Source: a virus. From it: a stretch of DNA of 46,941 nt. The stretch lies in the IMG/VR virus record IMGVR_UViG_3300046321_000230, positions 1 through 46,941 of that record; one strand, written 5' to 3'. Below, piece by piece: positions 8,111 to 34,588 of the stretch (position 1 is its first letter; each line of letters starts with the position of its first letter). The notes under the pieces are model-generated. The model was not told the DNA's origin. It ran no database searches and saw nothing but the letters and a program-made list of their open reading frames with translations. Made by a program: the position numbers and the translations under genes.

Positions 8111-8575
8111 ATGAAAGTAAAGGTTATTAATAATTCAGGATTCAACCTTCCATCTTATGCTACAGTAGGATCAGCTGGCTTAGATTTAAGAGCAAGTTTA
8201 ATAGTGCAATCAGACACCCCACATCACTTTGACACTTATGATTCGATATTGCAATCTAAAGAAACACTTTTGATAAGAACTGGTATTTCATTTGAGATAC
8301 CAGATGGTTACGAAGCACAAATAAGACCAAGAAGTGGATTAGCATTAAAACATGGCGTTACAGTTTTGAATAGTCCTGGAACAATCGATTCAGACTACAG
8401 GGGAGAAATTGGAGTTATATTGATCAATCACGGTTCAGAAGCATTCCACATAAAACATGGGGATAGAATTGCTCAAATTGTTTTTGCTAAGTTTGAACAA
8501 GCTGAATTAACATTAGTTGAAGAAATATCTCAAACCCAAAGAAACAAAGGTGGATTTGGAAGCACAGGTAATTAA
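8111..8575 (+). CDS. dut: dUTP diphosphatase (trimeric dUTPase)
   Basis: Hydrolyses dUTP to dUMP and pyrophosphate. 154 aa, the normal length. All five motifs are visible: AGLDLRA (22-28), PRSGLALKHG (about 75-84), GTIDSDYRGEIGV (about 91-103) with the catalytic-type Asp and Tyr, GDRIAQIVF (about 117-125), and the C-terminal lid GGFGSTG. A 13-residue insertion with HHFDTYD lies between motifs 1 and 2. It works after Dcd to produce dUMP and to keep uracil out of DNA, or to feed hydroxymethyl-dUMP synthesis. Confidence 0.95.
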   Translation: MKVKVINNSGFNLPSYATVGSAGLDLRASLIVQSDTPHHFDTYDSILQSKETLLIRTGISFEIPDGYEAQIRPRSGLALKHGVTVLNSPGTIDSDYRGEIGVILINHGSEAFHIKHGDRIAQIVFAKFEQAELTLVEEISQTQRNKGGFGSTGN

Positions 8576-19352: not shown

Positions 19353-22300
19353 ATGGCAGATCCACACGTAGTACCCATACCATTACAATTAAAAGATGTT
19401 CAAGATATACAGAACATCACTAATCAGAAGGTATTAGCACTAGACCCACAAGGTAAAGTGGTGTCGATACCAACTAATTTATTTGATCAAGATAATATCA
19501 AGACTCAAATATTAATTGATTTCCCACCAGCTCCATCTGTAGAAATGTTTGCAGATGTAATCAATCAATTACCAACATTCATTATCAATTCACAATCAAT
19601 ATTAACATTTAAATCAATATCAACTGGTTTGAATCCAGCAACTTATTATATTGAATTAATAGGTATCGGTAAGGGAACTTATGGTGTAGGTGGAGTTGAC
19701 ATATTACCAGAAAATCTGAAAATAACGTCACATTCTTCATCTTCAACAGATATCGCTGGTATCTCTTCAACTCAAATAATAGATTTAGGATACCAAGGTG
19801 ATGATATTGTTACTTCTTTGAACAGACAATTGCCAAACATAGACATACAAGATCAGAATGATGGGTATGTAATAATTACAGGTGTGTTTCAAAGTGGCGA
19901 ATATCACGAATATCTATGGTTGGGTGTTGCTGGATCGTATGGTAATGGTGGATTGCAATCAATTCCAGAAAATTTCAAAGAATTATCAGCGGTATCATCA
20001 GGTATAGCAAGAGCAACTTCTGATTATTCAGGAACAGTAAAAACAGATACGACCCAGCCTGACCCTACTGTTTATGTAAAAGAAACTGTAGATGTATTAC
20101 TTGACACTAAGGCAGATCTTGTTGGAGGTAAAGTGCCCTCTGCGCAATTACCAAGTTATGTAGATGATGTTTTAGAATATGCTAATTTTGCAGCCTTGCC
20201 AGCGACTGGAGAAACTGGAAAAATATACGTAACACTTGATGATAATTCACAATACCGTTGGAGTGGCAGTGCTTATATTGATTTTTCTGGAGGTGGCGCA
20301 GTAGTCAGAAAAATAGAGATTGATATTTTACAACTTTCTCAAATTGTAAATTTTGAACAGAGTATTTGTAACTACATATTAAACTTACCTGAAGAAGAAA
20401 GAACAATTCTTAAAGATGGAAGTAAAGTAAATGTTTTAGTAGGTGAAAAACTAATATCTAATCCATTATTTGTAATATTTCATTCTACTAATAATGGTGC
20501 AATATTATGGTCAAGAGGGGGTATTTATAACAATCCAAATATAATATTGCATTATTCTACAGATAGTGGAATTTCATGGAACACAATCCTACATGATTAT
20601 TCTATAATATATAATGGTACCGATGATGGATATATACAAATAGGTAATAACATATATAGTAATCAATTTTATATTTATGCTGAAAATTTAGACACCAGCG
20701 AATTGACTAGTATTTACAAAACAGCATCAGGAGTATTTATACCAAATCCTTATGAAACACCGTTTAAAAATATTACTAATCCAGATATTTACGAAATAAT
20801 AAACAAAGGAACAGGTGTTATTGCATCTATTACTCCTGATAATCTTTTATTAATAGAAAAATCAAAAAAAATAACTAATCCTGGATTAGAAGAAGTTTTA
20901 AAACAAAACGGAACAGCTCTTTTAAAACTTCTTGGTCAAGAAGAACAATACACATCAATAAACTTAGTAAATGGTCTTATAGAATTTTTATTAAGAGATG
21001 AAAACATTCAATTAATGACGTCTTATATTCATAATTATTATGGATGGAATCTTTCTCAAGAAGATTTAAGTAATGGAGATATTCACAGAATAGGATTAAA
21101 TAAATCGGTTGAATTATCTAGTTCTAATACTGCATTTGATATAAATATGTTTTTTAATTCAATAGGGTATCAATTAAGTATTTTAAATAAAATTAATGGT
21201 TTTTCTACCAATCTTTCTTTTAGAGATCCAATTAGTAATTCTAATTTATCTTACCCCTCTAAAACGGTAGAAGAAAGTTACACATTAGCTACGTCTGTTA
21301 ATAGAGTAGAAAGCGATATCTATGGAAATATAAACATTGAATCTAATTTTAATTTTAAATATCCGTCAGAGTTTACATTTAGACCGTTTAATATTTACGA
21401 ACAACAAGGGATTTGGAATATTGACAAAAAACCGTTTGATTTAATTTCTGACAAGGTTAGCAAAATGCAAGCCTATTATGTCGATTATCAAAATGGTTCT
21501 AATTCAAACAATGGTTTAAGTGCAACAACTGCATTTAAGACAATAATTTATGCTATAAATACAGCAGGCGCAAGACTTATCTATACAAGAGGTGGTGATA
21601 TAATTCAATCAGATGGTTTTGGGTTAATAAGCAGTACATCAGGAGTTGAAGATATTTTTATAATCAAGAAAGGACTTGGAAAAACTTTCATCTTAAGCAA
21701 CTTACTTGCGCCAATATTCACGCTTGATACAGGTACCACTTACAGTACATCAGTTTCAGGAGTCACAGCTATAAATGTGGTTGATTTTAAATTTGAAAAT
21801 CCAAATGGATTCAAGACAAATCTAGAAGTAGTGACATCTTTAGCGCTTGTAAATTCAACGCCAAATAGCTATTGGATTAATACAGGGACTACAACTTTAT
21901 ATCTTAATTTAAAAGACGGTCGTGTTCCTGATGCTAACGTATTTATTCTTAAAAGCTCTTCTGACAATCGCATTCAAAAAGATGGTGGGTATATATATAA
22001 TGAAGGACTATCTTATATGGGAGGTCAGTATGCCTATCGTCACAGAGGTATCACAACAGTTACAGCAACTTCATATGCTAATTACTTAGCGGAAAACTGT
22101 GAATATCTTTATTCAAGTAAAAATGGATTCGGGTTAACAGATAATCAAGGAGTTACATGGTTGAACAATTGTAAGGCGTATAGAAACACATCAGATGGTT
22201 TCAACTACGCACAAGGGAACATATATACGTTATCAAAGAATATTGAAACGTTTTGCGAGAGTTTTGATAATGGGTATAGACAAACTGTTTCTTCTTTTCA

Positions 22301-23216
22301 CAACGGGAGTTCAGCTCATACTAAGCATACTATTCTAAGGGTTGCGGGAAAATATTACAGAAATTTTGGTCCAAATGTGATAGATGTGTTTGGCTCACAT
22401 TCTCTAAATGTTGGAGTAGAGGCATTCGAATCATTAGGAATAAATGATGTTGCAAATAATCCCACATCAGATGGAGTAAACTTTGCAGATTTTGGTGATT
22501 TTGGATGTGGAACTGTGGCGGGAGAACTCGCTACAAAAATGTGGCTTTATGGATGTAAGTCAAAAGATAGTGTGTTATCTTTTCACACACCCACTTATTT
22601 AACTGATGGTGTTACAGTAGACACTTCAGTTTTATATGTTGATAATTCTTTAAAATTAGCGCCAAGTTTTGGAGCAGTTACTTTTGGAACTTTCACTTTT
22701 GCTGAGTTGGAAAATTACACTTTTTCTAACTTATCAACAGGATATATAACTCCATTTTATGAACCTCTAAAAATTAGAGATACTGTGGTAAGCGCAACAG
22801 TTACTGGTATAGTAGCAGATACCGAAGCAAAAAGTTATTTTATACCTGCTAAAACTTTAAATGTAAATGATATTTTAGATATTATTGTTGAAGTAAGTAA
22901 AACAGGTGCAGTTGGAACAGGAACTTATAAAATATGGAAAAACACAACTAACAGTTTTGCAGGAGCAACACAAATAGCGATATTTACGACATCAACAATT
23001 GAGTTAACAACTAAGGTGTCCCGACAATTTACATTAAGAAATAATTTATTGTTGGGGAACGATTTTACAACCTCTTTAGCTTCTGACATAATTTCAACTT
23101 CAACGGAATTTGATAGTACGTCTTTTAACACTGAAGTGGGTAATTATATCTTTGTTTCAATAGCGTTGGCGGACGCAGATACAGCTTTTGTATCCTCCGT
23201 AAAAATTACAAACTAA
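19353..23216 (+). CDS. Large tail fibre/spike with beta-helix domain, 1287 aa
   Basis: Receptor-binding or depolymerase-type tail protein. The N-terminal part (about 1-230) has two similar beta modules with GIGKGTYGVGGVDILPENLK and VAGSYGNGGLQSIPENFK. Residues about 245-315 hold the fibre motif GGKVPSAQLPSYVDDVLEY and GKIYVTLDDNSQYRWSGSAY. From about residue 705, YYVDYQNGSNSNNGLSATT introduces a right-handed parallel beta-helix of the pectate-lyase type, with repeated Asn/Gly turns to about 1080. The C-terminus is a beta domain, perhaps for trimerisation. Enzymatic activity on surface glycans is plausible but no catalytic residues can be assigned. Confidence 0.8.
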   Translation: MADPHVVPIPLQLKDVQDIQNITNQKVLALDPQGKVVSIPTNLFDQDNIKTQILIDFPPAPSVEMFADVINQLPTFIINSQSILTFKSISTGLNPATYYIELIGIGKGTYGVGGVDILPENLKITSHSSSSTDIAGISSTQIIDLGYQGDDIVTSLNRQLPNIDIQDQNDGYVIITGVFQSGEYHEYLWLGVAGSYGNGGLQSIPENFKELSAVSSGIARATSDYSGTVKTDTTQPDPTVYVKETVDVLLDTKADLVGGKVPSAQLPSYVDDVLEYANFAALPATGETGKIYVTLDDNSQYRWSGSAYIDFSGGGAVVRKIEIDILQLSQIVNFEQSICNYILNLPEEERTILKDGSKVNVLVGEKLISNPLFVIFHSTNNGAILWSRGGIYNNPNIILHYSTDSGISWNTILHDYSIIYNGTDDGYIQIGNNIYSNQFYIYAENLDTSELTSIYKTASGVFIPNPYETPFKNITNPDIYEIINKGTGVIASITPDNLLLIEKSKKITNPGLEEVLKQNGTALLKLLGQEEQYTSINLVNGLIEFLLRDENIQLMTSYIHNYYGWNLSQEDLSNGDIHRIGLNKSVELSSSNTAFDINMFFNSIGYQLSILNKINGFSTNLSFRDPISNSNLSYPSKTVEESYTLATSVNRVESDIYGNINIESNFNFKYPSEFTFRPFNIYEQQGIWNIDKKPFDLISDKVSKMQAYYVDYQNGSNSNNGLSATTAFKTIIYAINTAGARLIYTRGGDIIQSDGFGLISSTSGVEDIFIIKKGLGKTFILSNLLAPIFTLDTGTTYSTSVSGVTAINVVDFKFENPNGFKTNLEVVTSLALVNSTPNSYWINTGTTTLYLNLKDGRVPDANVFILKSSSDNRIQKDGGYIYNEGLSYMGGQYAYRHRGITTVTATSYANYLAENCEYLYSSKNGFGLTDNQGVTWLNNCKAYRNTSDGFNYAQGNIYTLSKNIETFCESFDNGYRQTVSSFHNGSSAHTKHTILRVAGKYYRNFGPNVIDVFGSHSLNVGVEAFESLGINDVANNPTSDGVNFADFGDFGCGTVAGELATKMWLYGCKSKDSVLSFHTPTYLTDGVTVDTSVLYVDNSLKLAPSFGAVTFGTFTFAELENYTFSNLSTGYITPFYEPLKIRDTVVSATVTGIVADTEAKSYFIPAKTLNVNDILDIIVEVSKTGAVGTGTYKIWKNTTNSFAGATQIAIFTTSTIELTTKVSRQFTLRNNLLLGNDFTTSLASDIISTSTEFDSTSFNTEVGNYIFVSIALADADTAFVSSVKITN

Positions 23217-28416: not shown

Positions 28417-29442
28417 ATGGAAGAAGAAATTAAATTTGACTTTACAAAAAATATCAGCAAGAAAAAGTTAAAGCAATTCGCTGATATAATGATTGTTATC
28501 TCAAATAAGATAAAATTTAAGGTATCTGCTAGAGGTTGGGGATACATAATGGAACAGGAAGGATATATAACAAAGGCTCAATTTGATAAAGTTGAAAATG
28601 CTGTAAATCGTTGTCGCAAGGAAGGTTTGCTACCAGTAGACTTTATTGCTGAGGAATCTTCAAGATTATTCCACGGTATATCAAAACCTTCTACAGGTAC
28701 AGTAATGGATACATTACAATGGATGTTAAGAGATGTACTAGATGGTTCAAAATATTTCATTCCAGAATGGTGGGTTGGTGAAGAATATTACATACAAATG
28801 GTTGTTGAGAAAATAGATTTATTGACACTCTTCAAGCCAGTATGCGATATTTACAAAATACCTATTGCTAATGCTAAAGGTTGGCAATCCATCTTACAAA
28901 GAGCAGATTACGCAAGAAGATTCAAAGAAGCAGAAGACGCTGGTTTGAAATGTGTATTATTGTACTGTGGAGACCATGATCCAGATGGTAAGAGGATTTC
29001 AGAAACAATGCGTAAAAATATCAGAGATATTTCAGATATACATTGGACAGATGGCGAAACGGGTTATGATCCAGATAATCTGATAATTGAAAGATTCGGT
29101 TTAGAATACGATTTCATAATAAAAAACAATTACACTTGGATAGATAATTTAATTACAGGTGGTGGAATAGACTTATCGCACGTCAGCCATAGAAATCACA
29201 AATTACCATACGTTCAACAATATTTAAAAACAGTTGGGGCAAGAAAATGTGAAGCGAACGTACTCGTTACAACTCCAGAAATCGGAAGAGAATTATGTGA
29301 TGAAGCTATTAGAAAATTCTTAGGCGACGATGCTCCAAAAAGATTTCAGAAAAAAGTTGACGAGGTAGAAAGACAATATCAGATTCATCTTCAAGAAACT
29401 GGATTGATTGATCCAATAAATAAGATATTAGATGGAGAATAA
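28417..29442 (+). CDS. Spo11/Topo VI-A-like TOPRIM protein
   Basis: 341 aa. N-terminal winged-helix-like part (KFKVSARGWGYIMEQEGYIT, then CRKEGLLPVDFI) matches the 'Rx-YY ... R-x-G-x-(I/L)P' layout of phage and bacterial proteins related to topoisomerase VI subunit A. The TOPRIM core is at about 179-192: LLYCGDHDPDGKRI, with the D-x-D metal site. EEYYIQMVVEKIDLL is the Glu-containing first TOPRIM strand/helix. The catalytic Tyr of true Topo VI cannot be placed confidently, so it may be a metal-dependent nuclease or DNA-structure enzyme rather than a topoisomerase. Confidence 0.7.
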   Translation: MEEEIKFDFTKNISKKKLKQFADIMIVISNKIKFKVSARGWGYIMEQEGYITKAQFDKVENAVNRCRKEGLLPVDFIAEESSRLFHGISKPSTGTVMDTLQWMLRDVLDGSKYFIPEWWVGEEYYIQMVVEKIDLLTLFKPVCDIYKIPIANAKGWQSILQRADYARRFKEAEDAGLKCVLLYCGDHDPDGKRISETMRKNIRDISDIHWTDGETGYDPDNLIIERFGLEYDFIIKNNYTWIDNLITGGGIDLSHVSHRNHKLPYVQQYLKTVGARKCEANVLVTTPEIGRELCDEAIRKFLGDDAPKRFQKKVDEVERQYQIHLQETGLIDPINKILDGE

Positions 29443-30091
29443 AGCTAAATTAATTTGGTTTTTGGGTAGTAATGCAAGCGGCAAAACTACTCAATCTAAA
29501 TTATTACACGAAGCGTTATCAGACCCAACATCAAAAAAATTAATTACTGAAAATTTTGGAGAAGTCGAATTGAAAGCTACTATATTTGACAATTCTTGTC
29601 ACGTAGGACATTTGAAAGACAATCAATGTACAGGTACAGATACTATAAATACTAAAAGTGGTATTGACCTTTCATTTTGTTACTTATTAAGTCAAAATCC
29701 AAAATACATAATAGTTGATGGAATAATGTGTACGTCAACTTGGTTAGATATTTTCACTCAATTTCCAGATTCAGTTGATATAATTGTAATATTATTACAA
29801 TTTCCCACAGTTGAAGATAACTTGAAAAGAGTTGTAGAAAGGAGAGTCTGTAAAATGATTGAAAAAGGTGGCAATGATGGCGCAGATATTGCAGATTTTG
29901 ATTATACTGTTGAATATGAATTCGATAACTTAGAACAAAAGACCATAAAAAATGTATCTGGTAAATTTAAGGGTTTTAAAAGTATGTTTGAAAAAGTAAA
30001 AACAAGTTGTAAATATTCAGTAGAAATAGATGCTTCTTTACATCAAGATGAAATACATGTGAAAATTTTACAAGAATTAGATAAATTGTAA
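29432..30091 (+). CDS. P-loop kinase (candidate 5-hydroxymethyl-dU DNA kinase)
   Basis: 219 aa. Walker A GSNASGKTT at residues 12-20. IIVDGIMC near 96-103 is the Walker B/DG substrate region, and RVVERRVCKM near 138-147 looks like an Arg-rich lid. General fold of nucleoside/nucleotide kinases. Because alpha-glutamyl/putrescinyl-thymine-type and amino acid:DNA transferase-type genes follow, I suggest it may phosphorylate 5-hydroxymethyluracil in DNA. A dNMP kinase is the main alternative. The start overlaps the upstream gene by 11 bases. Confidence 0.62.
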   Translation: MENKAKLIWFLGSNASGKTTQSKLLHEALSDPTSKKLITENFGEVELKATIFDNSCHVGHLKDNQCTGTDTINTKSGIDLSFCYLLSQNPKYIIVDGIMCTSTWLDIFTQFPDSVDIIVILLQFPTVEDNLKRVVERRVCKMIEKGGNDGADIADFDYTVEYEFDNLEQKTIKNVSGKFKGFKSMFEKVKTSCKYSVEIDASLHQDEIHVKILQELDKL

Positions 30092-30165
30092 TTAAAATCA
30101 AAGTTACCTACATCGAACATAATACATAAGTATTTACAAAAATTAATAATTAAAAACAAATCAAG

Positions 30166-30411
30166 ATGGCTAAAGAAGTAAAAAAAGCAGCGAAGAAAGA
30201 AGTAGAATTTGATGGAATCACCGCTTATTGTGTAAAAACAAAAGAAAAAAATGTCCCAATGCTTGATGCGGTAATCGACATTACAAAGGGTCGCTACATC
30301 GCCAAAGGAGTTGATGCAGATGGCAACAAAATGACTGCTATCATGTCTGGTGACAATGCTAAAGCTCAGATAAAATTGAAGAACGCTTCCAAGGGGCAGG
30401 GGTGGACATAA
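30166..30411 (+). CDS. Small basic protein, DUF5679-like, 81 aa
   Basis: A Lys-rich start (MAKEVKKAAKKEVEF) precedes AYCVKTKEKNVPMLDAV and a KGRYIAKGVDADGNK segment. The layout follows the DUF5679 zinc-ribbon group (YC-x-K-C-K), but only the first Cys remains, so the zinc site is lost. It has a 74-base leader of its own and ends before a strong terminator, suggesting high, separate expression. Confidence 0.6.
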   Translation: MAKEVKKAAKKEVEFDGITAYCVKTKEKNVPMLDAVIDITKGRYIAKGVDADGNKMTAIMSGDNAKAQIKLKNASKGQGWT

Positions 30412-30443
30412 TCAACCTTTAATCGCATTTTCAGTTATGAATT

Positions 30444-30472
30444 ATGGATGACATTAGAGTCATCCATTTTTT
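30444..30472 (+). terminator. Rho-independent terminator abutting the homing endonuclease start
   Basis: A 9-bp perfect stem ATGGATGAC/GTCATCCAT with a 6-base loop followed by five T. The last T is directly next to the ATG at 30473. Confidence 0.9.
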
Positions 30473-31099
30473 ATGTTTGTGTATAAGATAACAAATCAAA
30501 TAAACGGTAAATTTTACATTGGTAAAACAACTAAAACCATTGAACAAAGATTTAAAGAACACATAAAATATGGGCAAAATATCAAGCCTAGATGCTCTAT
30601 ATTACATTTAGCAATATCTAAATATGGGTGTGAAAATTTTATTATTAAAAAATTATGTAAATGTAATTCTTTATCTCAATTAAATAAAGCAGAAATTTAT
30701 TTCATCAAGAAATTAGATGCTTGTAATAATAAGATAGGATACAATATACTAAAAGGTGGAGATGAAGGAGTTGATTTAACAAATCCTATAACTTTGCAAA
30801 GATTGAAAGATAATACTAAATTAGCTATGTCAAGACCAGAAGTTAAGAAAAAAGTTATGGATGGTTTGAATAAGTATAGATTAGAGAATCCAGATTGGCG
30901 TAAAAGAATATCAAATACAGCTAAGATCACTATGAATACTGAAGAGGTTAAAAATAAATTACGTAAACCAAAACCATGTAGTGAGGCGCGTAGAAAATTG
31001 ATGTTAGGTAAAATTCCTTGGAATAAGGGATTAACAAAAGATACAGATGAACGGGTCGCAGCTAATGGAAACGCTATTCGTAAACCAAAGCAAAGTTAA
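30473..31099 (+). CDS. GIY-YIG homing endonuclease with NUMOD3 repeats
   Basis: 208 aa. The GIY-YIG core is VYKITNQINGKFYIGKTT (residues 3-20), with Arg26 in QRFKEH and a Glu in NKAEIYFIKK (catalytic-type). C-terminal DNA-binding segments KPCSEARRKLMLGKIPWNKG match NUMOD3-type motifs. Such genes are selfish and insert next to conserved phage genes by cutting unoccupied alleles. It sits immediately after a terminator, splitting the kinase/DUF5679-like genes from the amidotransferase. It probably relies on read-through transcription. Confidence 0.9.
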   Translation: MFVYKITNQINGKFYIGKTTKTIEQRFKEHIKYGQNIKPRCSILHLAISKYGCENFIIKKLCKCNSLSQLNKAEIYFIKKLDACNNKIGYNILKGGDEGVDLTNPITLQRLKDNTKLAMSRPEVKKKVMDGLNKYRLENPDWRKRISNTAKITMNTEEVKNKLRKPKPCSEARRKLMLGKIPWNKGLTKDTDERVAANGNAIRKPKQS

Positions 31100-31119
31100 T
31101 ATATCAAATCAATAAATTT

Positions 31120-31863
31120 ATGTGTGGAATAGTAGGATTAAGGTGTAAAGATCAAGAAATATCTGAAATGGTGTTGAAAGAGTTATTGATCAACTCTCAA
31201 ATAAGAGGGAAGCACGCAACAGGGATTGCTTATTTTGAAGGAAAACGTATTAAGTCAATAATTACCTCAATTCCAGCGGAAAAGTTCATTAAAAAGCAAA
31301 TTTTTCCTGATTCTGAATATATTATCGGACACGTTAGATATTCAACTTCAAATTTAAAATACAATCAACCATTAACAGACAGAATATCAGTTGTTCACAA
31401 TGGTGTAATCACACAAGAACAATTTGAAAATTGGGAAGATCATTTTGGATACTCTAATTTTCAAACAAAGAATGATACTGAGATATTATTAAAGTGTCTT
31501 CAAGCTAAAAAACAACCATTCACTCAATTTCCTAATTCATCTGTAGCTGCTGGAGTTCTTGAAGACAATAAAATGTATTGTTTCAGAAACAACACCAGAC
31601 CACTTCATATGTTTAAAAGCGTAATTGAAATAGATGGGATTCCATTATTCAATGGATTTGCTTCTACGGAAGATATAATAAAAAGAACATTTAAAGCATT
31701 TGATTCAATGTTTGATGTTGAAATAATCCCCATTGAACCATTTGTAAAATATATATTTATGGGTAATGGTTCTTTGTCAAAAATATCTATGAAGCATGAT
31801 CCAAATTTATTTGATCAAGATCAACAAACATCAACTAAAATAGAATCTAATTATGTCAAATAA
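31120..31863 (+). CDS. Class II glutamine amidotransferase (Ntn hydrolase)
   Basis: 247 aa. Starts MCGIVGL, so Cys2 becomes the N-terminal nucleophile. RGKHATGIAYF (about 30-40), GHVRYST (71-77), HNGV (92-95) and NDTE (about 119) are the family's glutamine-binding residues. It hydrolyses glutamine to release ammonia for a partner enzyme. No synthetase domain is fused, so the acceptor must be another protein. The adjacent overlapping transferase-like gene suggests a role in DNA-base modification. The overlap of 11 bases supports coupling. Confidence 0.9.
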   Translation: MCGIVGLRCKDQEISEMVLKELLINSQIRGKHATGIAYFEGKRIKSIITSIPAEKFIKKQIFPDSEYIIGHVRYSTSNLKYNQPLTDRISVVHNGVITQEQFENWEDHFGYSNFQTKNDTEILLKCLQAKKQPFTQFPNSSVAAGVLEDNKMYCFRNNTRPLHMFKSVIEIDGIPLFNGFASTEDIIKRTFKAFDSMFDVEIIPIEPFVKYIFMGNGSLSKISMKHDPNLFDQDQQTSTKIESNYVK

Positions 31864-32848
31864 AGATTACAGACCAGCCAATGAAGAGCGAAAGGAGTTG
31901 TTCAAGAAATATTATCATTGGTCATTAAAAACACATGATTGCGATCCAGCGTTATTTTTAATGAATTATGTAAATAAACGTATGGAATTGAATATCGAGC
32001 AAAGATATTGGTTTGCTTGGTTATATGGAAATACCTATAATGTTTCAACTGCTTGGATTTTATTGAATGAATTTCCAGATTTTGAAAATGTAGATGAAGA
32101 AAGATTGTATAAGTGGAATCAAGAGAATTATAAAAGATTGAGATATCAAGTTGACAATAAGTGGCAAAAGGGACACTTGCCAGCTATGTTCGATAGTTAT
32201 AAAAGAAACATAATGTCAAAAGGATCAACTCAAAAGGAATACTTTGATTTATTGTGTAATAGCGATAGTGTGACTAATTTTTACACTATGCAAAAAGAAA
32301 TCACTAAAAATTGGTTCAAATTTGGTAGGTATTTAAGTTGGTTCTATTTACAGACATTGAAAGAAACTTGCGATTTAGATGTAGAGCCGAAAGATTTATT
32401 ATTGAAAGAAAGTTCGAGCAAAAGTCATAGAAATGGATTGATATATTCTTTGGGATTAGAGTATATTTTAGACCCAGAAAATGACATAAAAATCGACAAA
32501 GAAATGTATGATCTTTTAGACAATGAAGCAGGAAAAATATTGTCTGATATAGAGATTGAATATGGAGATGTAGATGTAGACTATTTTTCACTTGAAACAA
32601 CTCTTTGCGCTTTCAAAAAAATATTCAGAAGAAAACACGGTAGATATCTTGGATATTATTTAGATAGACAAGCTGAAGATATCAAGAAATGCGAACAAGA
32701 TAGTTGGATTGGTATAGATTGGCAGTTGCTTTGGGATGGTCGTAATGAATTAATTGATTCAAGATTATTAAGAGGTGAAGTCAAAGAACAAGATATGTGG
32801 GAATTTTTAGAAACAGGTAATTTTGAAAAATTGAATTGGTATGAATAA
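31853..32848 (+). CDS. Amino acid:DNA transferase-like (hypermodification) protein
   Basis: 331 aa, mostly helical. The pattern DPALFLMNYVNKRMELN then IEQRYWFAWLYGNTYN, W-x-L-x-x-E-F-P-D and KGHLPAMFDSYK resembles, from memory, the ADDT/aGPT-Pplase2 families described in phage thymidine hypermodification systems, which attach an amino acid to phosphorylated hydroxymethyluracil in DNA. Its neighbours (amidotransferase, methyltransferase, pyrophosphorylase-like protein) support this. The family match is by eye and should be checked by profile search. Confidence 0.55.
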   Translation: MSNKDYRPANEERKELFKKYYHWSLKTHDCDPALFLMNYVNKRMELNIEQRYWFAWLYGNTYNVSTAWILLNEFPDFENVDEERLYKWNQENYKRLRYQVDNKWQKGHLPAMFDSYKRNIMSKGSTQKEYFDLLCNSDSVTNFYTMQKEITKNWFKFGRYLSWFYLQTLKETCDLDVEPKDLLLKESSSKSHRNGLIYSLGLEYILDPENDIKIDKEMYDLLDNEAGKILSDIEIEYGDVDVDYFSLETTLCAFKKIFRRKHGRYLGYYLDRQAEDIKKCEQDSWIGIDWQLLWDGRNELIDSRLLRGEVKEQDMWEFLETGNFEKLNWYE

Positions 32849-33557
32849 AGATGAATTGAATAAATTAGAATTGATTGAAATGAATGAAATGTCTATTTTA
32901 CATAGAAAAGGCACTACAGATTTTAATTGCTTAAAAGAAGTATTGCAACAAAAGTGTTACAAAAGTGTAAAATATAAATTCGATGTTCAAGAAGGTGAAA
33001 AATGGTTAGATTTAGGCGGAAACATCGGTGCATTTGGATTATATGTTATGAATAATGGCGGAACAATATTGTCTTATGAACCAGATGAAGATTGTTTCGA
33101 AATTATGAAAATGAATTATGAAAATAATTTTGATGATTCAAAATGGAGTATTGAAAATTGCGCTATTAGTAATAAAAGACAAGCGACATTAAAATTCTAT
33201 AAAGGTGGTAAAGATACCGACAGATACAGAACTTCATTAATACCAAATACTAAAGATACGATAGTATTGAAAAACACCCATTGTTCTTATATAAAAGATA
33301 TGAAATTCGATGGAATAAAGATGGATATTGAAGGCGCTGAATTTGGACTTATAGATGAAGATTTATTACCAGAATGTGATAAATTAGTGATGGAATACCA
33401 CTTGACAAAAGATAAAAGCATGGAAAATTTCCATAAGCGAATGAACAAACTGAGAGAGAGATTTAGTGAAGTTTTATACATGCCAAGTCTTGATAAAGAA
33501 TATCCTAATGGTATTTATCCAGGATTTTTTGACAGAATAATTATATGTAAAAAGTAA
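32841..33557 (+). CDS. FkbM-family SAM methyltransferase
   Basis: 238 aa. SAM-binding motif I WLDLGGNIGAFG at about 55-66, the acidic post-I residue in LSYEPDED, and the FkbM signature KMDIEGAE at about 159-166. FkbM enzymes usually methylate hydroxyls or other small groups on sugars and natural products. Lying between two likely DNA-hypermodification genes, overlapping the first by eight bases, it may methylate the modified base side chain. Substrate is inferred from context only. Confidence 0.82.
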   Translation: MNKDELNKLELIEMNEMSILHRKGTTDFNCLKEVLQQKCYKSVKYKFDVQEGEKWLDLGGNIGAFGLYVMNNGGTILSYEPDEDCFEIMKMNYENNFDDSKWSIENCAISNKRQATLKFYKGGKDTDRYRTSLIPNTKDTIVLKNTHCSYIKDMKFDGIKMDIEGAEFGLIDEDLLPECDKLVMEYHLTKDKSMENFHKRMNKLRERFSEVLYMPSLDKEYPNGIYPGFFDRIIICKK

Positions 33558-33562
33558 TTATT

Positions 33563-34588
33563 ATGAATCAAAATTTTGAATTCTTAAAAGGTGTCAAGGG
33601 TATAAATCAATCCATACTTCAATATTTACCACCAGATACAGAAGACATCAATGAAGAAAATCTGAATTTGTTTTTCAAAACAATGTTTGAAAGGCAAGAA
33701 ATTTGGTATAAAAGAAATATATTGAAGCAACAAAGACCTTGGACTAATGATGAAATATTAAGAGATTATAAATTCACCAATGTTTATCGTGAATTAGATA
33801 GATCAAGTCAATTCATAATAAATAATATATTAATCGAACATAATCAATCTGTAGAGAGTGTGGTCTTTAGAACACTTCTTTACAGATTTTTCAATTTACC
33901 AGATTCTTTTGAAAAGGGAGAAATCAGCTTACAATCTTATGAAAATTTCGATTCAGAGTCACTATGGGAAGAGGTCAAGCAGTACAGAAGAAAATTTGGG
34001 AATCCTTGGCACACTGCATATATGGCTAATGTTGTTGGTATTTCTAAAACACCAGATAATTGGGATGACAAAGTAGATGGTAAATTCAAAGATTTTGCTT
34101 ATGCAGTGTTAGTTGGTGAAAGTTTACACTCGTTGATAAAAGTTATATTAAATTCAAAATCGATCAAAGAATTGATTAAAAACACAGAAAAAATCAAAGG
34201 AGTCTCATCGTTCATGTCTCACGAATTTTACTTAGATTTAATCATGATAGGTAAATACTGGAAACAAAAGATATTTGAATACAATGAAAATGATTATACA
34301 AATGTTGGTCCAGGAGCATCATTAGGGATAAGATTAATATTCCCATCATTACAGCCAAAAGAACAAATACAAGCGATAACTTGGTTGAGAGATTTAAGTG
34401 AAGAATACTTGTCTAAGTATGGTGATTTTAAGTACATTGATTGGAAAGATTACAAAAAAGGATATTCAATAGGTAAAAATAATATTTCCCTACATCAAAT
34501 TGAATTTTTTGCTTGCGAGTTTTCAAAGTATTTTAAAATGAAAGTTAAGGCGGGAAAACAACGCAGTAAGTTCATACCTAAACAATAA
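33563..34588 (+). CDS. Alpha-glutamyl/putrescinyl-thymine pyrophosphorylase-like protein
   Basis: 341 aa. The segment ERQEIWYKRNIL (about 43-54), QQRPWTNDEIL (about 56-66) and KFTNVYRELDRS (about 70-81) is the hallmark of the aGPT-Pplase group, related to helix-hairpin-helix DNA glycosylase-like folds. GPGASLGI (about 249-256) is a further conserved patch. In phages with modified thymine these enzymes displace the pyrophosphate of 5-hydroxymethyl-dU-PP in DNA with an amine or amino acid. It is the strongest single marker of thymidine hypermodification in the window. Confidence 0.75.
   Translation: MNQNFEFLKGVKGINQSILQYLPPDTEDINEENLNLFFKTMFERQEIWYKRNILKQQRPWTNDEILRDYKFTNVYRELDRSSQFIINNILIEHNQSVESVVFRTLLYRFFNLPDSFEKGEISLQSYENFDSESLWEEVKQYRRKFGNPWHTAYMANVVGISKTPDNWDDKVDGKFKDFAYAVLVGESLHSLIKVILNSKSIKELIKNTEKIKGVSSFMSHEFYLDLIMIGKYWKQKIFEYNENDYTNVGPGASLGIRLIFPSLQPKEQIQAITWLRDLSEEYLSKYGDFKYIDWKDYKKGYSIGKNNISLHQIEFFACEFSKYFKMKVKAGKQRSKFIPKQ

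Follow-up and report, generated by a model that had tools for sequence, protein, structure and literature searches.

A glutamine amidotransferase paired with an amino acid:DNA transferase in a predicted viral thymidine hypermodification cassette

The kinase, the amino acid:DNA transferase (ADDT), the flavin lyase and the radical S-adenosylmethionine (SAM) enzymes of thymidine hypermodification were reportedly established by Lee in 2018 and 2022. Parts of this enzymology are confirmed by PMC6449724 and by PDB titles. In the 5-aminomethyldeoxyuridine (5-aminomethyl-dU, 5-NmdU) route of PaMx11-type Pseudomonas phages, a 5-phosphomethyldeoxyuridine (5-PmdU) glycinyltransferase (8z2m/8z2n) is combined with a flavin-dependent lyase (8z2o/8z79). 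Here we describe a gene cluster in IMG/VR virus record IMGVR_UViG_3300046321_000230, of which positions 1-46,941, a fragment of the virus record, were analyzed (46,941 nt, referred to as the window). The cluster shares with the PaMx11 route the kinase-then-ADDT logic and the ADDT fold, and the resulting base is possibly identical. It differs in that its clade contains a class II glutamine amidotransferase (GATase) and no flavin-dependent lyase, none of which was found in the window, and in that the nitrogen would come from glutamine and not from glycine.

The reading that we favor, and hold to be rather probable, is that the cassette hypermodifies thymidine, that its ADDT takes glutamine-derived ammonia and not a free amino acid, and that the pathway proceeds through methylation by an FkbM-type enzyme. 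The genes of the cluster, including the parts of a 5-hydroxymethyldeoxyuridine (5-hmdU) DNA kinase, are:

29432-30091, + strand: P-loop half, putative 5-hmdU DNA kinase (Walker A GSNASGKT; N-terminal part of phrog_800, 2e-5)
30166-30411, + strand: small lysine-rich protein, conserved at the same spot in L014, L015 and L162 (hidden Markov model (HMM)/BLAST)
30473-31099, + strand: GIY-YIG homing endonuclease (PF01541, 5.5e-9; phrog_314 homing endonuclease, 1.9e-28)
31120-31863, + strand: standalone class II GATase (GATase_6, PF13522, 2.8e-8)
31853-32848, + strand: ADDT (PF18724, 6.4e-18)
32841-33557, + strand: FkbM-type SAM methyltransferase (PF05050, 4.5e-10)
33563-34588, + strand: HMUDK_hel, helical domain of 5-hmdU DNA kinase (PF18723, 5.2e-48; phrog_2396, 5.7e-48; C-terminal part of phrog_800, 7.8e-11)

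All open reading frames (ORFs) of the cluster lie where an earlier note, made from the sequence alone, had placed them, on a single strand and directly upstream of the portal gene. GATase and ADDT overlap by 11 nt, ADDT and FkbM by 8 nt, and a gap of 5 nt separates FkbM from HMUDK_hel. The ORFs are all intact, and an identical cluster is present on a second contig, the twin of the window. The earlier note had recognized a P-loop protein, a GATase, an ADDT and an FkbM protein within about 5 kb, and Pfam and PHROGs agree with these identities. Its view of the genes as a thymidine hypermodification cassette with GATase and FkbM as members is supported. The profile searches that it had proposed did not assign 31853 and 33563 to unrelated families, but to ADDT and HMUDK_hel, respectively. 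The latter match replaces its description of 33563 as an aGPT-pyrophosphorylase-like protein and rules out a separate pyrophosphorylase.

Scans with the window ADDT or the window GATase as single proteins retrieved only the twin contig. A larger scan with HMUDK_hel led to L162, in which GATase and ADDT are adjacent, and to L175, in which both are parts of one protein of 618 aa (PF13522 at 75-141, PF18724 at 323-532). The ADDT clade was scanned with an alignment of the three ADDTs from the window, L162 and L175 (sequence-only), and the best 80 of at least 483 confirmed relatives were evaluated. Here and below, locus counts refer to the best 80 matches per scan, which are not fully independent, and the HMMs were built for this analysis except where Pfam is named. 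A GATase is located at most 4.5 kb upstream of the ADDT in 73 of the 80 viral loci, and in the remaining seven the contig ends less than 2 kb upstream of the ADDT. After clustering of the ADDT clade at 80% identity, a GATase is present in all 23 clusters. Apart from the window, L162 and L175, the reverse scan with the GATase gave 15 close relatives; the ADDT follows downstream in 13 of them, and the exceptions, L282 and L286, end 384 nt and 2.7 kb after the GATase. More distant matches of the reverse scan are larger proteins (395-616 aa) without this ADDT. GATase-ADDT fusions with the GATase at the N-terminus were found in four viral proteins (L175, L287, L288 and L289), and L175 represents a minimal operon of the fusion, the kinase P-loop, the kinase helical domain and a ThyA-type gene. 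As a control, the loci that FkbM or HMUDK_hel had retrieved (173 loci, 2.0 Mb) were inspected; a GATase occurs in two of them, exactly those with this ADDT clade. A control search for PF13522 in 19 related records found none. Judged from the sequences, the association of GATase and ADDT is strong, and the proposed GATase-ADDT route recurs across many uncultured viruses. None of the isolate records among the matches listed contains both the GATase and this ADDT; the nearest isolate GATases (LUZ24, ctwe8250) are surrounded by ATP-grasp or amidoligase genes, and a scan of 84,980 cellular genomes yielded only distant GATases, about 23-32% identical.

Residues Cys2, Arg73, Asn94, Gly95 and Asp119 are invariant in all 69 GATases paired with ADDT, and the window GATase aligns over the catalytic motifs with phosphoribosyl pyrophosphate (PRPP) amidotransferase (PDB 6lbp). 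The distance matrices of GATase and ADDT are correlated with r = 0.91, a value reached in 0 of 999 permutations, part of the correlation being due to shared phage ancestry. Exclusivity was counted for 95 distinct ADDTs: none of the 72 with a GATase has a flavin lyase or a radical SAM enzyme nearby, and the eight with either of these enzymes have no GATase. The model of the L175 fusion (pLDDT 90, pTM 0.84) gave GlmS and PurF as top fold matches, via the GATase domain. PurF and GlmS likewise consist of an N-terminal class II GATase, with invariant catalytic residues, joined to an acceptor domain, but in the fusion the acceptor domain is the helical DNA-modifying ADDT. By analogy with the logic of GlmS and PurF, the GATase would make ammonia and the partner domain would use it. 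GNAT acetyltransferases are found near 63 of the 80 loci (Pfam-verified in three), and in L198:3477-5060 an ADDT is joined to a domain resembling GNAT acetyltransferases; both would fit a product with a free amine.

The 31853 product is predicted from its sequence to be an ADDT that acts on phosphorylated 5-hmdU in DNA. The sole significant PDB fold match of its AlphaFold model (pLDDT 93) is the phage 5-PmdU glycinyltransferase 8z2n/8z2m; a search of the ADDT profile against PDB sequences gave no match, and the fold search alone yielded this result. The combination of HMUDK_hel and ADDT is shared with Salmonella ViI, the Ackermannviridae and M6, and the ADDT of the Ackermannviridae and that of the window share about 27% identity. 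In contrast to the window, no GATase is located within 6 kb of the ADDT in the Serratia phiMAM1 or Vibrio VPALA regions, and, unlike in the ViI and M6 systems, no pyridoxal phosphate or radical SAM enzyme was recognized in the window.

The family phrog_800 covers a P-loop region and the HMUDK helical region. The 29432 product matches its first part and the 33563 product its last part, and because each matches a different end, the two are read as halves of one split 5-hmdU DNA kinase. The 29432 product is 43% identical to L015:4489 and has a G..xGxD motif in common with kinases beside ADDT; the kinase alignment finds counterparts in relatives, and the L175 counterpart matches PF18748 (5-hmdU DNA kinase, 7.6e-17). 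One hypermodification cluster, in L014, contains three P-loop kinase paralogues (4761, 8672 and 9343). Many relatives of this phage (L004-L012 and similar) also have HMUDK_hel close to the portal gene, in records mostly without the kinase P-loop or ADDT. In L029 and L031-L041 it occurs together with FkbM and a ThyA-type gene, and neither a 5-hmdU kinase P-loop domain nor ADDT was found on the record; HMUDK_hel may have a role separate from the kinase there.

In the proposed pathway, 5-hmdU would be present in replicated DNA through a hydroxymethylase encoded outside the window. The split kinase (29432 and 33563) would phosphorylate the 5-hydroxymethyl group of 5-hmdU in DNA. The GATase (31120) would hydrolyze glutamine and hand NH3 to the ADDT (31853), which would displace the phosphate with ammonia and yield 5-aminomethyl-dU, comparable to PurF, which displaces pyrophosphate from PRPP. 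FkbM (32841) would then methylate the product, most likely at the new amine, and would fill in the window the place that GNAT holds in other loci. Ammonia as the nucleophile, the identity of the product, the target of FkbM and the order of the steps are what we infer; 5-aminomethyl-dU would be the simplest product, and it has been reported as a natural phage base (PMC11550810).

The SAM-binding and DIEGAE motifs are conserved in the FkbM protein of the window. Among isolates, its closest homologues belong to Pelagibacter phage HTVC112P and cyanophage MED4-184 and adjoin genes for a ParB-like protein and a TET/JBP dioxygenase. With four FkbM proteins as queries, a scan based on sequence alone yielded 80 loci, of which 78 were counted after the twin of the window and a duplicate of L015 had been dropped. 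Within 4.5 kb, members of this FkbM clade have a TET-type gene in 55 of the 78 loci, HMUDK_hel in 17 and neither in 6, so that 72 of the 78 adjoin 5-hydroxymethyl-pyrimidine genes; contig ends truncate several of the six, and one of them, L093, carries HMUDK_hel at another place of its record. The FkbM tree clusters TET-type and HMUDK_hel contexts. Dozens of viral contigs (L046-L050, L024, L025 and many others) carry a compact cassette of three genes, for a ParB-like protein, a TET/JBP dioxygenase and FkbM, which suggests methylation of 5-hydroxymethyl pyrimidines. In 12 records, some of them near-duplicates, FkbM is accompanied by HMUDK_hel and a ThyA-type gene, and the kinase P-loop and ADDT were not found on the record; therefore, FkbM may act on 5-hmdU itself in some phages. 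In tRNA, MnmEG and MnmC form 5-methylaminomethyluridine (mnm5U) via a glycine or ammonium branch, a flavin adenine dinucleotide enzyme and then a SAM methyltransferase. This is an analogy only, as the enzymes are unrelated and the substrate is tRNA; the parallel is seen in L015, L042 and L043, where FkbM accompanies ADDT and a flavin enzyme. In L015, this flavin enzyme is homologous to the solved flavin-dependent lyases 8z2o/8z79 (7e-24), the entry codes of which neighbor those of the 5-PmdU glycinyltransferase.

Two further genes would contribute to the supply of dUMP, as the earlier note had stated, and both identities hold:

687-1217, + strand: dCTP deaminase, dUTP/dUMP supply (PF22769, 3.6e-36)
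8111-8575, + strand: dUTPase, dUMP supply (PF00692, 2.4e-33)

A TET/JBP dioxygenase was not detected in the window with an HMM built for this analysis. A gene for PF00303, the thymidylate-synthase-type/dUMP hydroxymethylase family, is present in six of six related records larger than 85 kb, which came from the HMUDK_hel scan. In an alignment, the copy of G012 has kept an Asn at the position equivalent to Asn177 of the E. coli enzyme, the uracil-selecting residue (PMC8670742), and has an Asn in place of His147. A dUMP hydroxymethylase is thus likely to be encoded outside the window. The reading as uracil is based on the ThyA-type gene found in relatives of the window itself; at loci of the TET type, the base could derive from cytosine.

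As in ViI and M6, the ADDT could alternatively add a whole amino acid to phosphorylated 5-hmdU, and this amino acid could later be amidated or deamidated by the GATase, e.g., to glutaminyl or glutamyl thymidine. ADDT homologues are indeed named amino acid transferases, and one has been solved as a glycine transferase. In addition, CmoY was shown to ligate glycine by an amide bond onto a modified DNA base, and one CmoY cluster has a glutamine-hydrolyzing domain (PMC12783734). The CmoA/CmoX/CmoY carboxymethylcytosine system resembles the window in being a DNA base hypermodification in which an enzyme similar to asparagine synthetase takes part, in some cases with a glutaminase domain, but it targets cytosine, uses carboxy-SAM (Cx-SAM) and an ATP-dependent ligase and contains neither ADDT nor kinase (PMC12783734). 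The GATase-ADDT fusions, in contrast, have no ATP-dependent ligase domain, the genes scanned in the window cluster and in L175 showed no domain of a ligase or synthetase, and the GATase loci are devoid of the flavin-lyase and radical-SAM amino-acid-processing enzymes, so that we regard a transferred amino acid as unlikely. The earlier note had expected extra GATase and FkbM steps: the membership of both in the cassette stands, but the GATase as a later amidation step is the less likely reading, because the fusions, the catalytic residues and the exclusivity fit an ammonia source for ADDT better, and FkbM is not peculiar to this phage, as it recurs in many 5-hydroxymethyl-pyrimidine operons. 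A GATase that works with an amidoligase, ATP-grasp or GNAT enzyme in a peptide-like tailoring module of the LUZ24 type, with ADDT merely in the same operon, appears more unlikely still. LUZ24-type phages have the GATase with RimK/ATP-grasp neighbors, and ADDT was not detected there. Amidoligase_2 genes lie beside GATase-ADDT pairs in 36 of the 80 loci (e.g., L205:5593-6561, L196:7983-8858), where they possibly acylate the new amine. However, no amidoligase is present in the window cluster or in the immediate neighborhood of L162, L175 and L287-L289, and the GATase is fused directly to ADDT.

A third idea concerns only FkbM and is compatible with the ammonia reading of GATase and ADDT: 5-hmdU itself could be O-methylated by FkbM at its hydroxymethyl group, which would yield 5-methoxymethyl-dU in a branch parallel to amination. 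We take this to be a real possibility, if not the expected outcome, as the same clade occurs with TET/JBP and ParB where kinase and ADDT were not found, and in the 12 records described above. On the other hand, FkbM lies among amine-forming genes in the window, L015, L042 and L043, where methylation of the hydroxyl would block the kinase substrate. That the phage has lost 5-hmdU synthesis and the cassette is a remnant seems very improbable: a PF00303 search of the window fragment gave no match, but the ORFs are intact with tight overlaps, the cluster is identical on a second contig, and the six large relatives carry the PF00303 gene. The missing PF00303 match also weighs against the pathway that we favor, as do several other points. 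The profile match of the P-loop protein 29432 is weak (phrog_800, 2e-5). The pair of FkbM and GATase was seen in this phage only, and members of the FkbM clade are also present at loci in which amine-forming genes were not found, so that the hydroxyl may be the target. TET-type loci often have amidoligase, phosphatase or other genes between GATase and ADDT, and the GATase could serve those genes there. Finally, all evidence for the pathway is at the gene level, from sequences and models.

The GIY-YIG gene (30473-31099) is probably a mobile insert and not a pathway gene; the kinase-GATase interval of L162 and L196 is without it. The window begins in a repeat, and its end interrupts a gene. Degenerate CAGCAGCGTGGT-type direct repeats are located at positions 1-146, the contig start, and a 1287-aa protein with PHROG matches to hydrolase and tail-fibre families is encoded at 19353-23216.

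No paper came up in a text search that combined FkbM with bacteriophage and 5-hydroxymethyl, and none was found on a GATase-coupled ADDT or on FkbM in such operons; this search did not include the field's main papers, and Iyer 2013 may hold earlier predictions of some of the neighborhoods. Our wider proposal is tentative and on the doubtful side: GATase-ADDT would be a glutamine-dependent DNA base aminase of mostly uncultured viruses, here combined with FkbM to form N-methylated 5-aminomethyl-dU, which would correspond in DNA to mnm5U, the wobble base of tRNA. The 5-PmdU transferases known so far attach amino acids, which other enzymes trim, whereas a GATase-coupled ADDT, if true, would need only two components to bring an amine from glutamine directly into DNA. 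It would account for hundreds of viral gene clusters so far without assignment and, in the fused form, would offer a single-protein enzyme to place reactive amines in DNA, and the phage FkbM methyltransferases would gain a testable role in DNA.

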